A model generated the notes under the pieces. The model saw only the letters and a list, made by a program, of their open reading frames with translations. It did no database searches and was not told the origin of the DNA. DNA of 53,752 bases from NCBI GenBank assembly GCA_028714255.1, contig JAQTMR010000014.1:1-53752 (forward strand). Direction: 5' to 3'. Position numbers and translations under genes: made by a program. Each line of letters begins with the position of its first letter. Within the stretch, counting starts at the first letter, position 1. Shown in pieces: positions 20,405-52,120 of this stretch. The stretch is from Phycisphaerae bacterium. GTDB taxonomy: Bacteria; Planctomycetota; Phycisphaerae; Sedimentisphaerales; Anaerobacaceae.

Positions 20405-21895
20405 TCACTGGTTAAGCTTTGGAAGACAAGATTTGAGTTGAGTCTTCCTTTTTAAAAAGTGTCCTTGGTGCAAGCGCAAAGGCAAGGGAAGTTCTCTTGG
20501 ATCCACTCCTATCATTACAGGAATCAGCTTTCTTTTCTGCTTTTCAGTCATCATAAGTAGATGGAAAGCGCTCCATTCAAATTCGACAAATGGTTTCGTA
20601 ATGTTGTTGATACTGGTTCCTACGAGAATTAACTTTTCAGCAGATTCCAACGCACGATTAATTTGATTAGCCCAATTTCCATCATGCAGAGTAGTCTCGC
20701 TGAAGAAGATGCGTTTGTTGGAGTTTTGTGATAAATATTTGTAAACACTACGTGCGGTTAACCTGTCCTCCGAAGCAAAACTGATAAAAACGTCAAATTC
20801 TCTTCTCTTCTTTAAAGTCAGCGTCGCCATATATCGCTGAACAATCCTTCGAGTCACTGGACACAAACCAAACGGCCAAGGTGCTTTCTTATATTGTTTA
20901 AGAACCTGGGAACGACGATATTGATCAATTCGGTGCAGGTAATGGGTTAAAACTTGGTTTATTTCCGCAGATCCATTCTCGTATTTCTTCGCGTTGTAAA
21001 AAAATATATCCGGCAAAAAATCCGATTCGCCCTTTTCTATAAGATTATGAAATCTTCCTATTTCAAACAAGCCAACAGGGCTATTTATCACTGTCCCGCC
21101 AGGGCTTTCTCCATCAATGAGAATAGTATGAGGGTCCATTGTGATATAACCAACTTTGTCAACTTCAATCCCGAAATCTTCGGCATTGACATTGATAAAA
21201 CATCCTTTTGTTTTTAAGGCACTATCTTTTGCAAAACTGACATAAAGCTTATCTGGGCCATCTAACCACTTTAATGGAACTTTGGACATTTTTTTGAAAT
21301 TAAGATGAGGAAACTGGTTGCTTATAATTTTTCGAACTGCACGCATCTCCAGGCGATCTATTATCTCGCCCTTTACTGCTTCAAGTAAAAGCCACTCCTT
21401 GCGACTGGGATTGAATGCTATCAATTCTTCTCGCAATTCACGTTCTATTGTATCCGAAGGATTCAATAGCTCATGTATCGAATCACATCCACCATTGGCA
21501 ATATTCCAGCCGATGGGGTAAATATCTCTATAGAAAAAACAGTAATACTCCTCGTGACCGTAACGAATTATAGGAAGTGTCCCCCCGCTCGCATAACGAA
21601 AGGGAAATTTCTTATCCGAAAAAGAATATACTTTTTCTTTATCTTTACCTGTTAGCAAAAAATCATCCAGCTTTTTTTGATAGATCTTTGATTTTCTTTT
21701 AAAGTTAGGTATCTTCTTCTGAACATCTCGTTTGCCACCATCATCCCAAACAGCAAGATTCCGATCATTGAATTCTACGCCTAAACGACACCCCTTTTTT
21801 AATTTTTTCAACAAAAATTCCGTAACAAGTACTTGAAGAAATCTGTGATTTGCCTTTTCTAATGGCAGTATCCTATCTGATTGAATCGTTTTCAT
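20405..21895 (-). CDS. Nudix-box-like and TIR-domain fusion protein
   Basis: 496 residues, no membrane segment. About residues 100-175 carry a near-Nudix box: G136, E142 in GGCDSIHE, then R152-E153-L154-R155-E156-E157, matching GX5EX(7-9)REUXEE. Here the gap between the first Glu and REUXEE is 9 instead of 7, and the last Gly is absent. Residues about 366-485 form a TIR domain: FDVFISFASEDR (box 1), KRIFFSETTLHDGNWANQI (BB loop), KLILVGTS, KPFVEFEWSAFH with Glu440 as the likely NADase residue, and KRKLIPVMIG. TIR domains of bacterial defence systems cleave NAD+ and Nudix enzymes hydrolyse nucleoside diphosphate derivatives, so a role in anti-phage response or NAD metabolism is inferred. The gene is AT-rich, stands alone and is bracketed by dispersed repeats (20143-20169, 22049-22116). 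The TIR call is firm; the Nudix call is weaker. Confidence 0.82.
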   Translation of the reverse strand: MKTIQSDRILPLEKANHRFLQVLVTEFLLKKLKKGCRLGVEFNDRNLAVWDDGGKRDVQKKIPNFKRKSKIYQKKLDDFLLTGKDKEKVYSFSDKKFPFRYASGGTLPIIRYGHEEYYCFFYRDIYPIGWNIANGGCDSIHELLNPSDTIERELREELIAFNPSRKEWLLLEAVKGEIIDRLEMRAVRKIISNQFPHLNFKKMSKVPLKWLDGPDKLYVSFAKDSALKTKGCFINVNAEDFGIEVDKVGYITMDPHTILIDGESPGGTVINSPVGLFEIGRFHNLIEKGESDFLPDIFFYNAKKYENGSAEINQVLTHYLHRIDQYRRSQVLKQYKKAPWPFGLCPVTRRIVQRYMATLTLKKRREFDVFISFASEDRLTARSVYKYLSQNSNKRIFFSETTLHDGNWANQINRALESAEKLILVGTSINNITKPFVEFEWSAFHLLMMTEKQKRKLIPVMIGVDPRELPLPLRLHQGHFLKRKTQLKSCLPKLNQ

Positions 21896-23616: not shown

Positions 23617-24797
23617 TGAGCGGAAAATGTTTTTTCTTTGCCGGCGGCGGAACTGGGGGACATATCTATCCCGCTATCGCGATAGCGGAAAGAATGGCTA
23701 AGCTTGAGCCTGAAGTTAAAGTGCGTTTTTTCTGCAGCAATCGCAGCGTCGATTTGCGAATCCTTGCCAAGACCGATTTCGTACACGCGAGCCTGCCGGT
23801 TCATAAGTTTTCTCTCAAACCTGTCGAACTAATCAAGTTTTGCACTTCATTTTTAGAAAGCTTCAGAATCGCCAGGCGGGCATTTATTGAAAACAAAGAC
23901 TCAATTGTAATCGGGGTCGGCGGCTTTGTGTCGGCGCCGGTTTGTCTGGCCGCCCGCAAACTCAATATCCCTATCGTTCTTTTGAATGTCGATATTGTAC
24001 CGGGACGGGCAAACAAGATAATAGCCCGCTGGGCAGATGAGATTTTCGTGCAGTTCGAAGATACGAGAAAATGCTTCGCCAAAAAGAAAGCTAAAGTGAA
24101 CGTCCTCGGCTGTCCGCTACGAAGCGGTTTTGACAATCCCCATCCTGAAAAGGCGATAGAGCAATTGGGTCTTGATAAAAACAAAAAGACTTTGCTTATA
24201 ACCGGAGCATCAAGCGGGTCGGAGAGCATCAACGCAGCGATATGTTCGCTTCTGGAAAATTTGAATGCTTTCACGAACGATTGGCAGATAGTTCATTTGA
24301 CAGGACGAGCGAATTTCGAAAACGTGCAGAAGAGATACATCGGCGCCAAAATCAGCCATAAAGTTATAGACTATTTCGACGATATGCCGGACTTATTGTC
24401 GGCTGCGGATTTGGTCATCGGTAGAAGCGGAGCAGTAAGCGCAGCGGAATATGCCGCAGCCGGTGTGCCGAGCATCTGCATACCTTATCCGTATCACAGG
24501 GACAGGCATCAATACTTGAACGCAGGCAAGCTTGTGCAGGCGGGAGCCGCAGTTATAGTAGATGACCAGCCAAAGCACAAGGATATGGGCGGTCGGCTGT
24601 GGGCGGTACTGGAGGAACTGATGAAAAATGATGAGAAGCGAAATAAGCTGGCGGAGAACTGCAAGACAATTGCAAAGACTCAGGCCAGCTTTAAAATCGC
24701 AGAGAAATTATTAAAGATTGGCATTGCGCCGCAGAAGGCCGCGGATTACAAGGGAGACACCGACAGCAAAAAGAATTGCAGCAACACCAAAGTATGA
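23616..24797 (+). CDS. murG: UDP-N-acetylglucosamine:lipid I transferase MurG
   Basis: 393 residues, using the ATG that overlaps the ftsW stop (TAATG) with GGGAGAGAAG upstream. MurG adds GlcNAc to lipid I to give lipid II at the inner membrane face. The GGGTGGH motif is near residue 8, VIGVGGFVSAPV is near 90, LITGASSGSESINAA near 193, and the acceptor-side motif LLSAADLVIGRSGAVSAAEYAAAGVPSICIPYP near 265. The C-terminus is about 20 residues longer than usual and overlaps the convergent gene at 24711 by 87 bases. Confidence 0.95.
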   Translation: MSGKCFFFAGGGTGGHIYPAIAIAERMAKLEPEVKVRFFCSNRSVDLRILAKTDFVHASLPVHKFSLKPVELIKFCTSFLESFRIARRAFIENKDSIVIGVGGFVSAPVCLAARKLNIPIVLLNVDIVPGRANKIIARWADEIFVQFEDTRKCFAKKKAKVNVLGCPLRSGFDNPHPEKAIEQLGLDKNKKTLLITGASSGSESINAAICSLLENLNAFTNDWQIVHLTGRANFENVQKRYIGAKISHKVIDYFDDMPDLLSAADLVIGRSGAVSAAEYAAAGVPSICIPYPYHRDRHQYLNAGKLVQAGAAVIVDDQPKHKDMGGRLWAVLEELMKNDEKRNKLAENCKTIAKTQASFKIAEKLLKIGIAPQKAADYKGDTDSKKNCSNTKV

Positions 24798-25094
24798 GGC
24801 TTGTGGTTCGCCATAGTCGCCGGAATATCCTAATAATGGTATGCAAATAAATGCCGCTGCGATGATAAGCACAGCAATGCCGGAGGTAAGATTTTTTATC
24901 CAAAGCTGACCGATTGGCTCGGGAGGCCTCAACTCCGACAGAGGGGTACCCTTTTCGATAGCTGCTATAATCTGTTTGTGCTCAAGGCGTTTCTTAAGAT
25001 AGTAAATCAGGCCTATAGTGATTATGGGACTCGATAAACCAAGGAAAATCAAAAACACTTTAATACCTTCTGAGATATCATTCTGCCAAAACAT
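24711..25094 (-). CDS. DUF6249-like two-TM membrane protein
   Basis: About 127 residues from the ATG at 25094, which has AAAGG 7-8 bases upstream; an earlier ATG at 25109 is in frame. Helices at about 12-35 and 72-92 frame a short basic loop containing KRLEHKQIIAAIEKGTPLSEL. This arrangement is typical of small bacterial DUF6249 proteins, whose function is unknown. It follows the DUF4097-like gene within a few bases, so it belongs to the ECF-controlled operon. Its 3' end runs 87 bases into murG. Confidence 0.62.
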   Translation of the reverse strand: MFWQNDISEGIKVFLIFLGLSSPIITIGLIYYLKKRLEHKQIIAAIEKGTPLSELRPPEPIGQLWIKNLTSGIAVLIIAAAFICIPLLGYSGDYGEPQASYFGVAAILFAVGVSLVIRGLLRRNANL

Positions 25095-25116
25095 TTTTAA
25101 GCCTTTCATTTAAGAG

Positions 25117-26019
25117 TTATTTTATCTTTATTGAGCCGTTATATGTTTCGAGATAGAGTTTGCCTTCGCCGGTGCCGATTGTTCCGGTAAGCTTTTTTTT
25201 GCTGACTTTTCCTATTACAGTTACCGGCAAATCGGTATTTACCGAACCATTGTGCGTTTCAGCTTCGATTTTAGCCGACAGATTCGGCGGAGTGGTCAGA
25301 TTTATCCAGTTATTGTAAGTGACTATCGAGATATCGCATACCGGCGGAGCGGTTGGGGAGTAAACCACTTTTACGCTGCCGTTGTGGGTCAGCAGTTTTA
25401 TATCGCCGGAGACTTCTTCGCAATTCAGCTGGCCGTTATGTGTTTTAAGCTCCGTATTGCCCGAAATCCCTTTGCAGGTGATTTCTCCGTTATGCGTTTT
25501 AAGTTTGGTTGTTCCGGATATTTTCTCCATGACGACCTTACCGTTATGCGTTATGCCATTGAGCTGACCGGTTAGATTTTTGATTGTTAGAGCACCGTTG
25601 TGGGAGAGAATATCGGCGCTTGTTTGGCCGGGGACGGTCGCATCGAAGTTGACACCAATGGATTCGCCACGGGCCAATCTCGGCTTTTCGATTTTCGTGG
25701 CGAGACCGCTGTCGGAAGGAACAAGTTTTATTTCTACCGCTTCGGCGATTCTTTGCGCATCTTCGACGGTTTCGGCCAATGCGGTAATTGCAGCAGTGAG
25801 ACTGCACTGGTCAACATCGGCGCCGGTAACGTTTATATAGCCATTATGGGTTTGGACTTTGAAGAGATTGTCCGCCTGCATAGGGGCGGAAACATGGACG
25901 GTCCTTTCGTATTTCTTCCTCGGCTTATAACTGCTTGCCATACAGAAACACTCCGAAGCAGCTACCAGCAAACACAGCAAGGAAACCATAGAACATTTAA
26001 GCAAATTTTTCTTACTCAT
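25117..26019 (-). CDS. DUF4097-like exported protein with (T/S)HNG repeats
   Basis: 300 residues with an N-terminal signal peptide. The mature part holds repeating units of about 17-20 residues with the words THNGYINV, SHNGALTI, THNGKVVM, THNGEITC, THNGQLNC, THNGSVKV, THNGSVNT and TYNGSIKI, which would form a right-handed beta-helix. DUF4097 and related proteins are often found in envelope-stress regulons. An AGGAG site is 7 bases before the ATG. The gene is divergent from the sigma-factor gene and has a TGAAAC-N17-CGACTA promoter at 26084-26112. Confidence 0.85.
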   Translation of the reverse strand: MSKKNLLKCSMVSLLCLLVAASECFCMASSYKPRKKYERTVHVSAPMQADNLFKVQTHNGYINVTGADVDQCSLTAAITALAETVEDAQRIAEAVEIKLVPSDSGLATKIEKPRLARGESIGVNFDATVPGQTSADILSHNGALTIKNLTGQLNGITHNGKVVMEKISGTTKLKTHNGEITCKGISGNTELKTHNGQLNCEEVSGDIKLLTHNGSVKVVYSPTAPPVCDISIVTYNNWINLTTPPNLSAKIEAETHNGSVNTDLPVTVIGKVSKKKLTGTIGTGEGKLYLETYNGSIKIK

Positions 26020-26083
26020 TTTAATTCTCCTAAAATTGTTTCGTTTTTGCTTTATTCTAAGGTTTTGTTTCCTTTTTGTCTAT

Positions 26084-26112
26084 TAGTCGCTTATTTCATA
26101 CAATAGGTTTCA
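26084..26112 (-). promoter_or_regulatory. ECF-type promoter for the DUF4097-like operon
   Basis: On the minus strand: -35 TGAAAC (complement of 26107-26112), a 17-base spacer, and -10 CGACTA (complement of 26084-26089). Its boxes are identical to those of the facing promoter at 26120-26148. The -35 lies in a shared palindrome, GTTTCA-N7-TGAAAC. A 5' leader of about 58 bases to the ATG at 26019 follows. Confidence 0.7.
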
Positions 26113-26119
26113 AAATTTA

Positions 26120-26148
26120 TGAAACTTTTCGAGGTTCCGCTGCGACTA
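26120..26148 (+). promoter_or_regulatory. ECF-type promoter for the sigma factor gene
   Basis: TGAAAC at 26120-26125, a 17-base spacer, CGACTA at 26143-26148. It resembles ECF consensus boxes such as TGAAAC...CGT. It suggests that the sigma factor drives its own gene as well as the divergent operon. The expected start of transcription would fall close to the ribosome site at 26152-26160, giving a very short leader, which weakens this assignment somewhat. Confidence 0.6.
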
Positions 26149-26167: not shown

Positions 26168-26722
26168 TTGACAGACAAGGTAAATGAAAAATGGTTAGGT
26201 AAGCTGCTGGCTGGTGACCACGAGGCATTTGCCGGGTTTGTCGATAAATACAAGGAAACGGTGTTTTTATGCTGTCGGCTGCTTGGGTTGAGAGAGGATG
26301 AGATTGAGGACGCGGCGAGCGAGACATTTATGGCAGCTTACAAGGGGATAAGACAATACAAAGGTCAGGCGGAATTGAGCACCTGGCTTTGGACAATCGC
26401 ATACCGCAAGGGAGTAAATTACATCCGTAAAGAGTCCAAAGTACGGCAAATGTCTCTGTCTGCCGAAGACGGTGATATAACGCCATCCGCAAGAGACTTT
26501 ACAGCCGAAGAAAAGGAGCAGGCTGAGCTTGTGTGGGAGACTGTAAGTCGGCTGCCGGGGTTGTGGGCGATGGCGATAGTTTTGTTCTACCGTGAAGAGA
26601 AAGATTTAAAAGAGATTGCAAAAATAATGCGAGTGGGACAAAATACAGTTAAAACGTATTTGTTCAGGGGCCGAAAAAGATTGAAAGAGCATTTAGCCGG
26701 CGTTATAAAGGAAGATGTCTGA
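26168..26722 (+). CDS. ECF-type sigma-70 family sigma factor
   Basis: 184 residues, starting at a TTG with AAGGAAAGG at 26152-26160. Region 2 spans about 25-95: FVDKYKETVFLCCRLLG, EIEDAASETFMAAYKGIRQY, ELSTWLWTIAYRKGVNYIR. Region 4 is about 130-180 with DLKEIAKIMRVGQNTVKTYLFRGRKRLKEHL, a helix-turn-helix for the -35 box. No other domain is present. The stop overlaps the ATG of the next gene, typical for a sigma/anti-sigma pair. Target promoters are proposed at 26084-26112 and 26120-26148. Confidence 0.93.
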   Translation: MTDKVNEKWLGKLLAGDHEAFAGFVDKYKETVFLCCRLLGLREDEIEDAASETFMAAYKGIRQYKGQAELSTWLWTIAYRKGVNYIRKESKVRQMSLSAEDGDITPSARDFTAEEKEQAELVWETVSRLPGLWAMAIVLFYREEKDLKEIAKIMRVGQNTVKTYLFRGRKRLKEHLAGVIKEDV

Positions 26723-27108
26723 TGAGTAAAGATTCGGAAGCAAAATTCGATGAAATGTTATTTAGAGTATTAAAGAGACATTCGGAGCCGGTGCCGGCTG
26801 ATTTTGCTGACAAGATGTTAAGGCAAATTAAAAAAACCGAAAACGAAAAGACTCTGGCGCGTGTTATTATGCAGGAAAGGCTTGCTCTGGTTGGTTGTAT
26901 CGTTTTGGGTATTATAACGATTGTTGCGGTATTGGTCTTTCCGGGTACTACTATAAATTTTACGGAATTAGCGGAAACCTCTGCTGATAAGATTACCCAA
27001 ACTATAGAAGCCGCCCGTTACAACTGGCGGTTATATGCGGTCTTTGCGGGGGTGTTCTTATTTACTGCTTACAGCTTTGCGGCGTTGTTAGTAAACGATA
27101 GCCGATGA
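26722..27108 (+). CDS. Putative anti-sigma factor (small membrane protein)
   Basis: 128 residues. The N-terminal 50 residues are charged and helical (DEMLFRVLKRHSEPVPADFADKMLRQI), as in the cytoplasmic part of many anti-sigma factors. Two membrane helices follow at about 54-76 and 104-124. There is no zinc-binding HxxxCxxC motif. The ATG overlaps the sigma-factor stop (TGATG). The function is inferred from position and topology. Confidence 0.65.
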   Translation: MSKDSEAKFDEMLFRVLKRHSEPVPADFADKMLRQIKKTENEKTLARVIMQERLALVGCIVLGIITIVAVLVFPGTTINFTELAETSADKITQTIEAARYNWRLYAVFAGVFLFTAYSFAALLVNDSR

Positions 27109-51502: not shown

Positions 51503-52120
51503 ATGAAACGAAAAATTCTCGTCGCGACTACGAATCCGGGCAAGGTTGCCGAGCTAAGGGCAATGTTAGATTTGGACATCGAGTGGGCGGGGCTTTCCGA
51601 TTTTCCGAACATTCAGGAAATTGATGAGGATGGAAAAACCTTCGCCGAGAACGCCCGCAAAAAAGCCCTTGGATATGCGAAGCAAACAGGTCTTTGGACG
51701 ATTGCCGATGATTCAGGTTTGGTAGTCGATGCGCTGGCAGGTGAGCCGGGGGTAAAAAGTGCGAGATTTTCCGGCGCCAAAGATAAAGAAAGGACCCTGC
51801 TCGACCATAAGAATATGGCCAAGGTTTTAAAGCTTCTTAAGGCAGTGCCAGAAGAAAAAAGAACAGCGATATTTATGTGCTGCCTGTGTTTGGCCAGTCC
51901 TGATAAAGTTTTAATTGAGACAGAAGGAAAGCTCCAAGGCGTTATCGCAGAAGAGGAAACAGGGACCAACGGTTTCGGCTATGACCCGATTTTTTTTGTG
52001 CCGGGATTGAACAAAACCGTCGCGCAACTGACAAGTGAAGAAAAAAATGCGATTTCTCACCGCGGCGGCGCAATTCGAAAATTAAAACCGCCTCTGGAGC
52101 AACTCTTAGAGAGTATCTGA
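51503..52120 (+). CDS. rdgB: Non-canonical purine NTP pyrophosphatase (RdgB/HAM1)
   Basis: 205 residues. Removes dITP, XTP and similar from the nucleotide pool. ILVATTNPGKVAELRAML at the N-terminus, FAENARKKALGYAKQTGLWTIADDSGLVVDAL with the active-site acids, GTNGFGYDPIFFVPG, and EKNAISHRGGAIRKL near the end. It starts 15 bases after argF and is likely co-transcribed. Confidence 0.95.
   Translation: MKRKILVATTNPGKVAELRAMLDLDIEWAGLSDFPNIQEIDEDGKTFAENARKKALGYAKQTGLWTIADDSGLVVDALAGEPGVKSARFSGAKDKERTLLDHKNMAKVLKLLKAVPEEKRTAIFMCCLCLASPDKVLIETEGKLQGVIAEEETGTNGFGYDPIFFVPGLNKTVAQLTSEEKNAISHRGGAIRKLKPPLEQLLESI

Follow-up and report, generated by a model that had tools for sequence, protein, structure and literature searches.

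An ECF sigma factor of a Phycisphaerae bacterium very probably drives its own operon and a divergent DUF4097 membrane operon from back-to-back promoters

In a contig of a Phycisphaerae bacterium, the gap between an ECF sigma factor operon and a divergently oriented operon headed by a DUF4097 (Toastrack) gene carries the same promoter-like motif on both strands. This raised the question of whether one sigma factor controls both itself and its neighbours, and whether its control extends beyond this locus. The whole stretch of DNA analysed (53,752 nucleotides) is referred to below as the window; it belongs to a genome of 2.41 Mb in 39 contigs, 98.9% complete.

The first-pass annotation had reported TGAAAC-N17-CGACTA on both strands, and this proved exact: the plus-strand copy reads TGAAACTTTTCGAGGTTCCGCTGCGACTA and the minus-strand copy (26112 to 26084) TGAAACCTATTGTATGAAATAAGCGACTA, both with N17 spacers. 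The reported palindrome of -35 boxes was also exact (GTTTCA at 26107-26112, TGAAAC at 26120-26125) and was restricted to the two boxes alone, since the intervening 7 bp lack palindromic symmetry. The two promoters had been described as facing, which is the wrong orientation: the -35 boxes are inner and the -10 boxes outer, so that the promoters point apart, back to back. The start sites proposed at 26077 and 26155 lie at the usual distance from the -10 boxes predicted here. When spacers of 15 to 19 nucleotides were allowed on both strands, the window contained 3 matches against a shuffle mean of 0.05, and the occurrence of two sites within one 65-bp gap was far above the chance expectation for the window. 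The third exact match (51504-51530, N15 spacer) overlaps the start codon of an unrelated ORF (51503-52120, MKRKILVATT...) and was judged a coincidence. As read from the sequence, region 26084-26148 is with high confidence the divergent double promoter of the adjacent ECF sigma factor, driving both operons (Table 1).

Table 1. Features of the sigma factor locus, in window coordinates
Feature	Position	Strand	Evidence
ECF sigma factor, 184 aa, TTG start	26168..26722	+	Pfam Sigma70_r2, r4_2; NCBIfam SigW best but below cut-off; PDB SigW 5wuq
128-aa membrane protein, probable anti-sigma factor	26722..27108	+	Position, 1-nt overlap, conserved N-terminal region, membrane segments
DUF4097 (Toastrack) protein, first gene of divergent operon	25117..26019	-	PF13349 E 3e-7, over cut-off
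DUF6249-like small membrane protein, second gene of divergent operon	24711..25109	-	PF19762 E 4e-6; below gathering score
Predicted ECF promoter of sigma operon, TGAAAC-N17-CGACTA	26120..26148	+	Exact motif; 30/30 usable orthologous loci, <=1 mismatch
Predicted divergent ECF promoter of DUF4097 operon, TGAAAC-N17-CGACTA	26084..26112	-	Exact motif; 29/30 usable loci, <=2 mismatches
-35-box palindrome GTTTCA-N7-TGAAAC	26107..26125	.	Sequence; gap 6-9 bp in 19 cases, 71-89 bp in 11
Possible housekeeping (sigma-70-like) promoter TTGTCT-N17-TACAAT	26076..26104	+	9/12 consensus matches; towards sigma gene, inside divergent promoter

The sigma factor displayed only the sigma2 and sigma4 regions, without sigma1.1 or sigma3, as in group IV (ECF) factors, and it scored above the cut-offs of both Pfam regions and of TIGR02937 (sigma70-ECF). 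Its apparent start codon is TTG, in the window as in most orthologues, and the leader predicted for the window's gene is only some 13 nt long. The gene of the 128-aa membrane protein shares one base with the sigma stop codon. This protein is a probable anti-sigma factor, an assignment that relies on position, overlap and membrane segments, given that searches by family and by structure yielded little: it matched the NCBIfam antisigma model poorly (E 0.005), a profile search of solved structures returned no known anti-sigma fold, and its AlphaFold model was of low confidence (mean pLDDT 58.5). In the divergent operon, the DUF4097 protein has a signal-peptide-like N-terminus and exceeded the PF13349 gathering score (30.5 bits vs 22.9), whereas its small membrane partner fell under that of PF19762 (27.1 bits vs 33) and is hence called DUF6249-like only. 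Elsewhere in the window (20405-21895, minus strand), a 496-aa protein with a C-terminal TIR domain (PF13676) weakly matched candidate defence model PDC-S66; its N-terminus looked Nudix-like by eye only.

Among characterised proteins, the sigma factor was closest to B. subtilis SigW (with the related SigX/SigM group). SigW reads its -35 consensus, TGAAACxTTT, via K170, T171 and R175 (PMC6713349). In a phmmer alignment these main base-reading residues are kept as K162, T163 and R167 of the window's factor; K and R were conserved in 30/30 orthologues and T in 23, the other 7 having I or V. Backbone contact R172 of SigW is replaced by Y164, and H174 by F166. The -35 consensus is likewise shared, the window's group displaying TGAAAC[CT]TnTT. 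The -10 box differs, being CGACTA here, whereas SigW prefers CGTA and SigX CGAC. The window's factor also scored far below the SigW equivalog cut-offs (102.6 bits against 209, 93.5 against 243), its membrane partner is not recognisably akin to a known anti-sigma family, and its regulon, unlike that of SigW, is apparently one locus. By these comparisons it is SigW-like at the -35 box, yet it is not classed as SigW.

Orthologues were surveyed in 161 genomes of the same order, 31 of which carried the sigma factor and 30 the DUF6249-like gene. Both occurred together in 27 genomes, the sigma factor alone in 4, the partner alone in 3 and neither in 127 (Fisher p 3e-23, relatedness ignored). Two of the sigma-only cases (G015, G036) lie on short contigs ending near the gene, and one partner-only genome (G066) showed a partial sigma match. 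Genome G001, from the window's genus, retains the same neighbouring genes and a 62% identical DUF4097 gene; the sigma orthologue, the DUF6249-like partner and the motif (within two mismatches) are all absent. As far as these sequences tell, G001 offers a comparison made by nature: promoter and sigma factor are missing together. Such observations bear on the view that the sites are real ECF promoters read mainly by another ECF factor, the adjacent one having other targets. About nine further sigma-factor relatives are encoded in the genome and ECF promoter specificities can overlap, but motif and adjacent sigma factor were present together and absent together, and the three other ECF factors with an alignable helix lack K-T-x-x-x-R (the rest not being alignable there). 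We regard this explanation as very unlikely.

Promoter conservation was compared across 30 genomes, each contributing one usable upstream region; these regions do not amount to 30 independent events because some genomes are closely related (L016 and L070 are identical here). The sigma-side promoter was found at 30/30 loci (26 exact, 4 with one mismatch) and the divergent one at 29/30 (22 exact, 5 with one mismatch, 2 with two), while the thirtieth locus (L005) has a divergent copy with two mismatches farther off. Some loci displayed two divergent-side copies. Information per position reached 1.94 bits in the boxes on the sigma side and 1.86 on the divergent side, against 0.73 and 0.68 in the spacers. 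A conserved promoter of the factor's own, with AAC in the -35 box and a CG-type -10 box, as sought in autoregulated ECF factors, was present at all 30 loci. The gap between -35 boxes was bimodal, 6-9 bp or 71-89 bp, plus two more distant cases, and both promoters stayed whole at separations of 71-191 bp. Within the separated loci L006, L007, L012, L013, L069, L072, L073, L075, L076 and L079, the gap was nearly always 85-89 bp; this recurrence may stem from shared ancestry or from constraint.

The bimodal gap is what decides against reading the palindrome as an operator, bound by a repressor or activator dimer and similar to -35 boxes only by accident. Operators typically look like this, a perfect 6+6 inverted repeat lying between divergent genes, and the short gap recurs in 19 cases. 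However, in 11 cases the halves lie 71-89 bp apart, each with its own -10 box 16-17 bp away; the -10 boxes are conserved as strongly as the -35 boxes, and the short gap is non-palindromic and differs in length by 3 bp among loci. That every -35 box of the separated loci keeps its own -10 box speaks for the palindrome being two promoters rather than an operator, and the operator reading was rejected as highly improbable. The full double promoter occurred in 9/397 genomes of the class, every time beside the sigma gene. Outside the order, absence of the sigma factor is only indicative, because the phylum-wide search scored only 8 candidates per genome. That the motifs are functionless chance matches draws on the expectation of a single match about once or twice in a genome of this size (2 with the reversed-pattern control), but is already refuted by conservation at some 30 loci with drifting spacers and by 0 matches of the reversed double promoter in the 397 genomes.

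Control of both its own operon and the divergent one by a single sigma factor was thereby strongly supported, through the 30 conserved loci, the co-occurrence with the partner, the promoters remaining whole at 71-191 bp and the SigW-type -35-reading residues. As judged from sequence, this stress-type sigma factor very probably activates both the operon that encodes it and the membrane-protein operon next door. An envelope signal would be the input: the factor would be released, presumably from the adjacent membrane protein, and the sigma-RNA polymerase complex would bind TGAAAC/CGACTA on either strand. Rightward transcription would yield the sigma factor and the probable anti-sigma factor, i.e. 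positive autoregulation, and leftward transcription would co-express the DUF4097 and DUF6249-like membrane operon. Owing to the 7-bp gap between -35 boxes, two polymerases are probably mutually exclusive, so that the two promoters would compete.

A sigma-70-like match directed towards the sigma gene lies inside the divergent promoter (Table 1) and in some lineages may serve as a housekeeping promoter for basal expression, a lead suggested by its sequence. Matches of this quality (9/12, against a shuffle mean near 6) were present in 7/19 close-spaced loci (two of them identical), others being without one. A second sigma-70-like match, TAGACA-N17-TAGAAT (26082-26054, minus strand), points towards the DUF4097 gene and overlaps the ECF pair, and a TATAAT-like sequence is recurrent in the divergent spacer of several relatives. 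A more elaborate scheme appears rather doubtful: loci with a 6-9 bp gap would act as a one-polymerase bidirectional switch, and in part of the group a nested housekeeping promoter would provide basal sigma factor and interfere with the divergent side, all for a single-locus regulon.

In the window's genome, the exact pattern was found only in the promoter pair and the coincidental match at 51504. One-mismatch and refined patterns gave no more matches than the reversed-pattern control, and a match at C28:2241 was rejected as a target since it is antisense within an ORF. No DUF4097 gene was found in this genome apart from that of the sigma locus. With no extra site above chance, the regulon is probably the sigma locus alone, as far as a scan that weak sites would escape can indicate. 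The first-pass annotation had taken the lack of other copies as a refutation, and only two sites did rise above control; this demand was too strict, because a purely local regulon leaves no other copies to find. Its expectation that the consensus would reveal the rest of the regulon failed in the genome itself and held in relatives, where further likely targets were encountered. In G047 an unlinked DUF4097 gene was preceded by the promoter, with a counterpart in G003 (a near-match, -10 box CGACAA; no sigma orthologue was detected in this 84% complete genome). These two sites, from genomes that belong to a single genus, were located at L170 2414-2442 and L171 2337-2365. G017 displayed the promoter before a second DUF6249-like gene, where again a divergent pair is present, separated by 87 bp; the gap at this unlinked locus (L173 2011-2155) is of the same 85-89 bp class as above. 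Further sites preceded a small membrane ORF whose start resembles DUF6249-like proteins (G054) and DUF4097 genes within longer operons (L226, L227). Most unlinked DUF4097 genes of sigma-bearing relatives were without a promoter site, and off-locus matches in G037 and G018, with no DUF4097 or DUF6249-like neighbour, were taken as chance.

ECF sigma factors are typically co-transcribed with their anti-sigma factors, and autoregulation is predicted for about 55% of them (PMC8103513). The locus most likely represents ordinary ECF autoregulation, a mode of gene control that is well known. The EcfG/PhyR general stress locus of Alphaproteobacteria likewise displays own-sigma promoters for the sigma operon and a divergent unit (PMC8103513). 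Yet no PhyR/NepR partner-switching genes were present here, and EcfG regulons are large, in contrast to that of the window's factor. Operonically linked sigma factors have been mentioned for Toastrack/DUF4097 neighbourhoods (PMC11237479). Toastrack/Lia-like envelope-stress neighbourhoods also associate DUF4097 and a small membrane partner with a transcription regulator; unlike in these, the membrane partner here is DUF6249-like, and the genes immediately around it include no recognisable PspA, PspC, LiaF-type protein or two-component system. No report of back-to-back ECF promoters of such form was found in the part of the literature covered. What the analysis adds is the promoter consensus, the tie to the DUF4097/DUF6249-like module and the apparently single-locus regulon.

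This planctomycete ECF group gains a well-supported consensus, TGAAAC[CT]TnTT...GCGACTAA, with 16-17 bp between boxes. The locus is a clean case from nature of an ECF sigma factor that apparently controls little beyond its own locus, an unusually small target set. The DUF4097/DUF6249-like membrane module is tied to this ECF group as its apparently near-exclusive target, which makes the signal and the function of the module testable.
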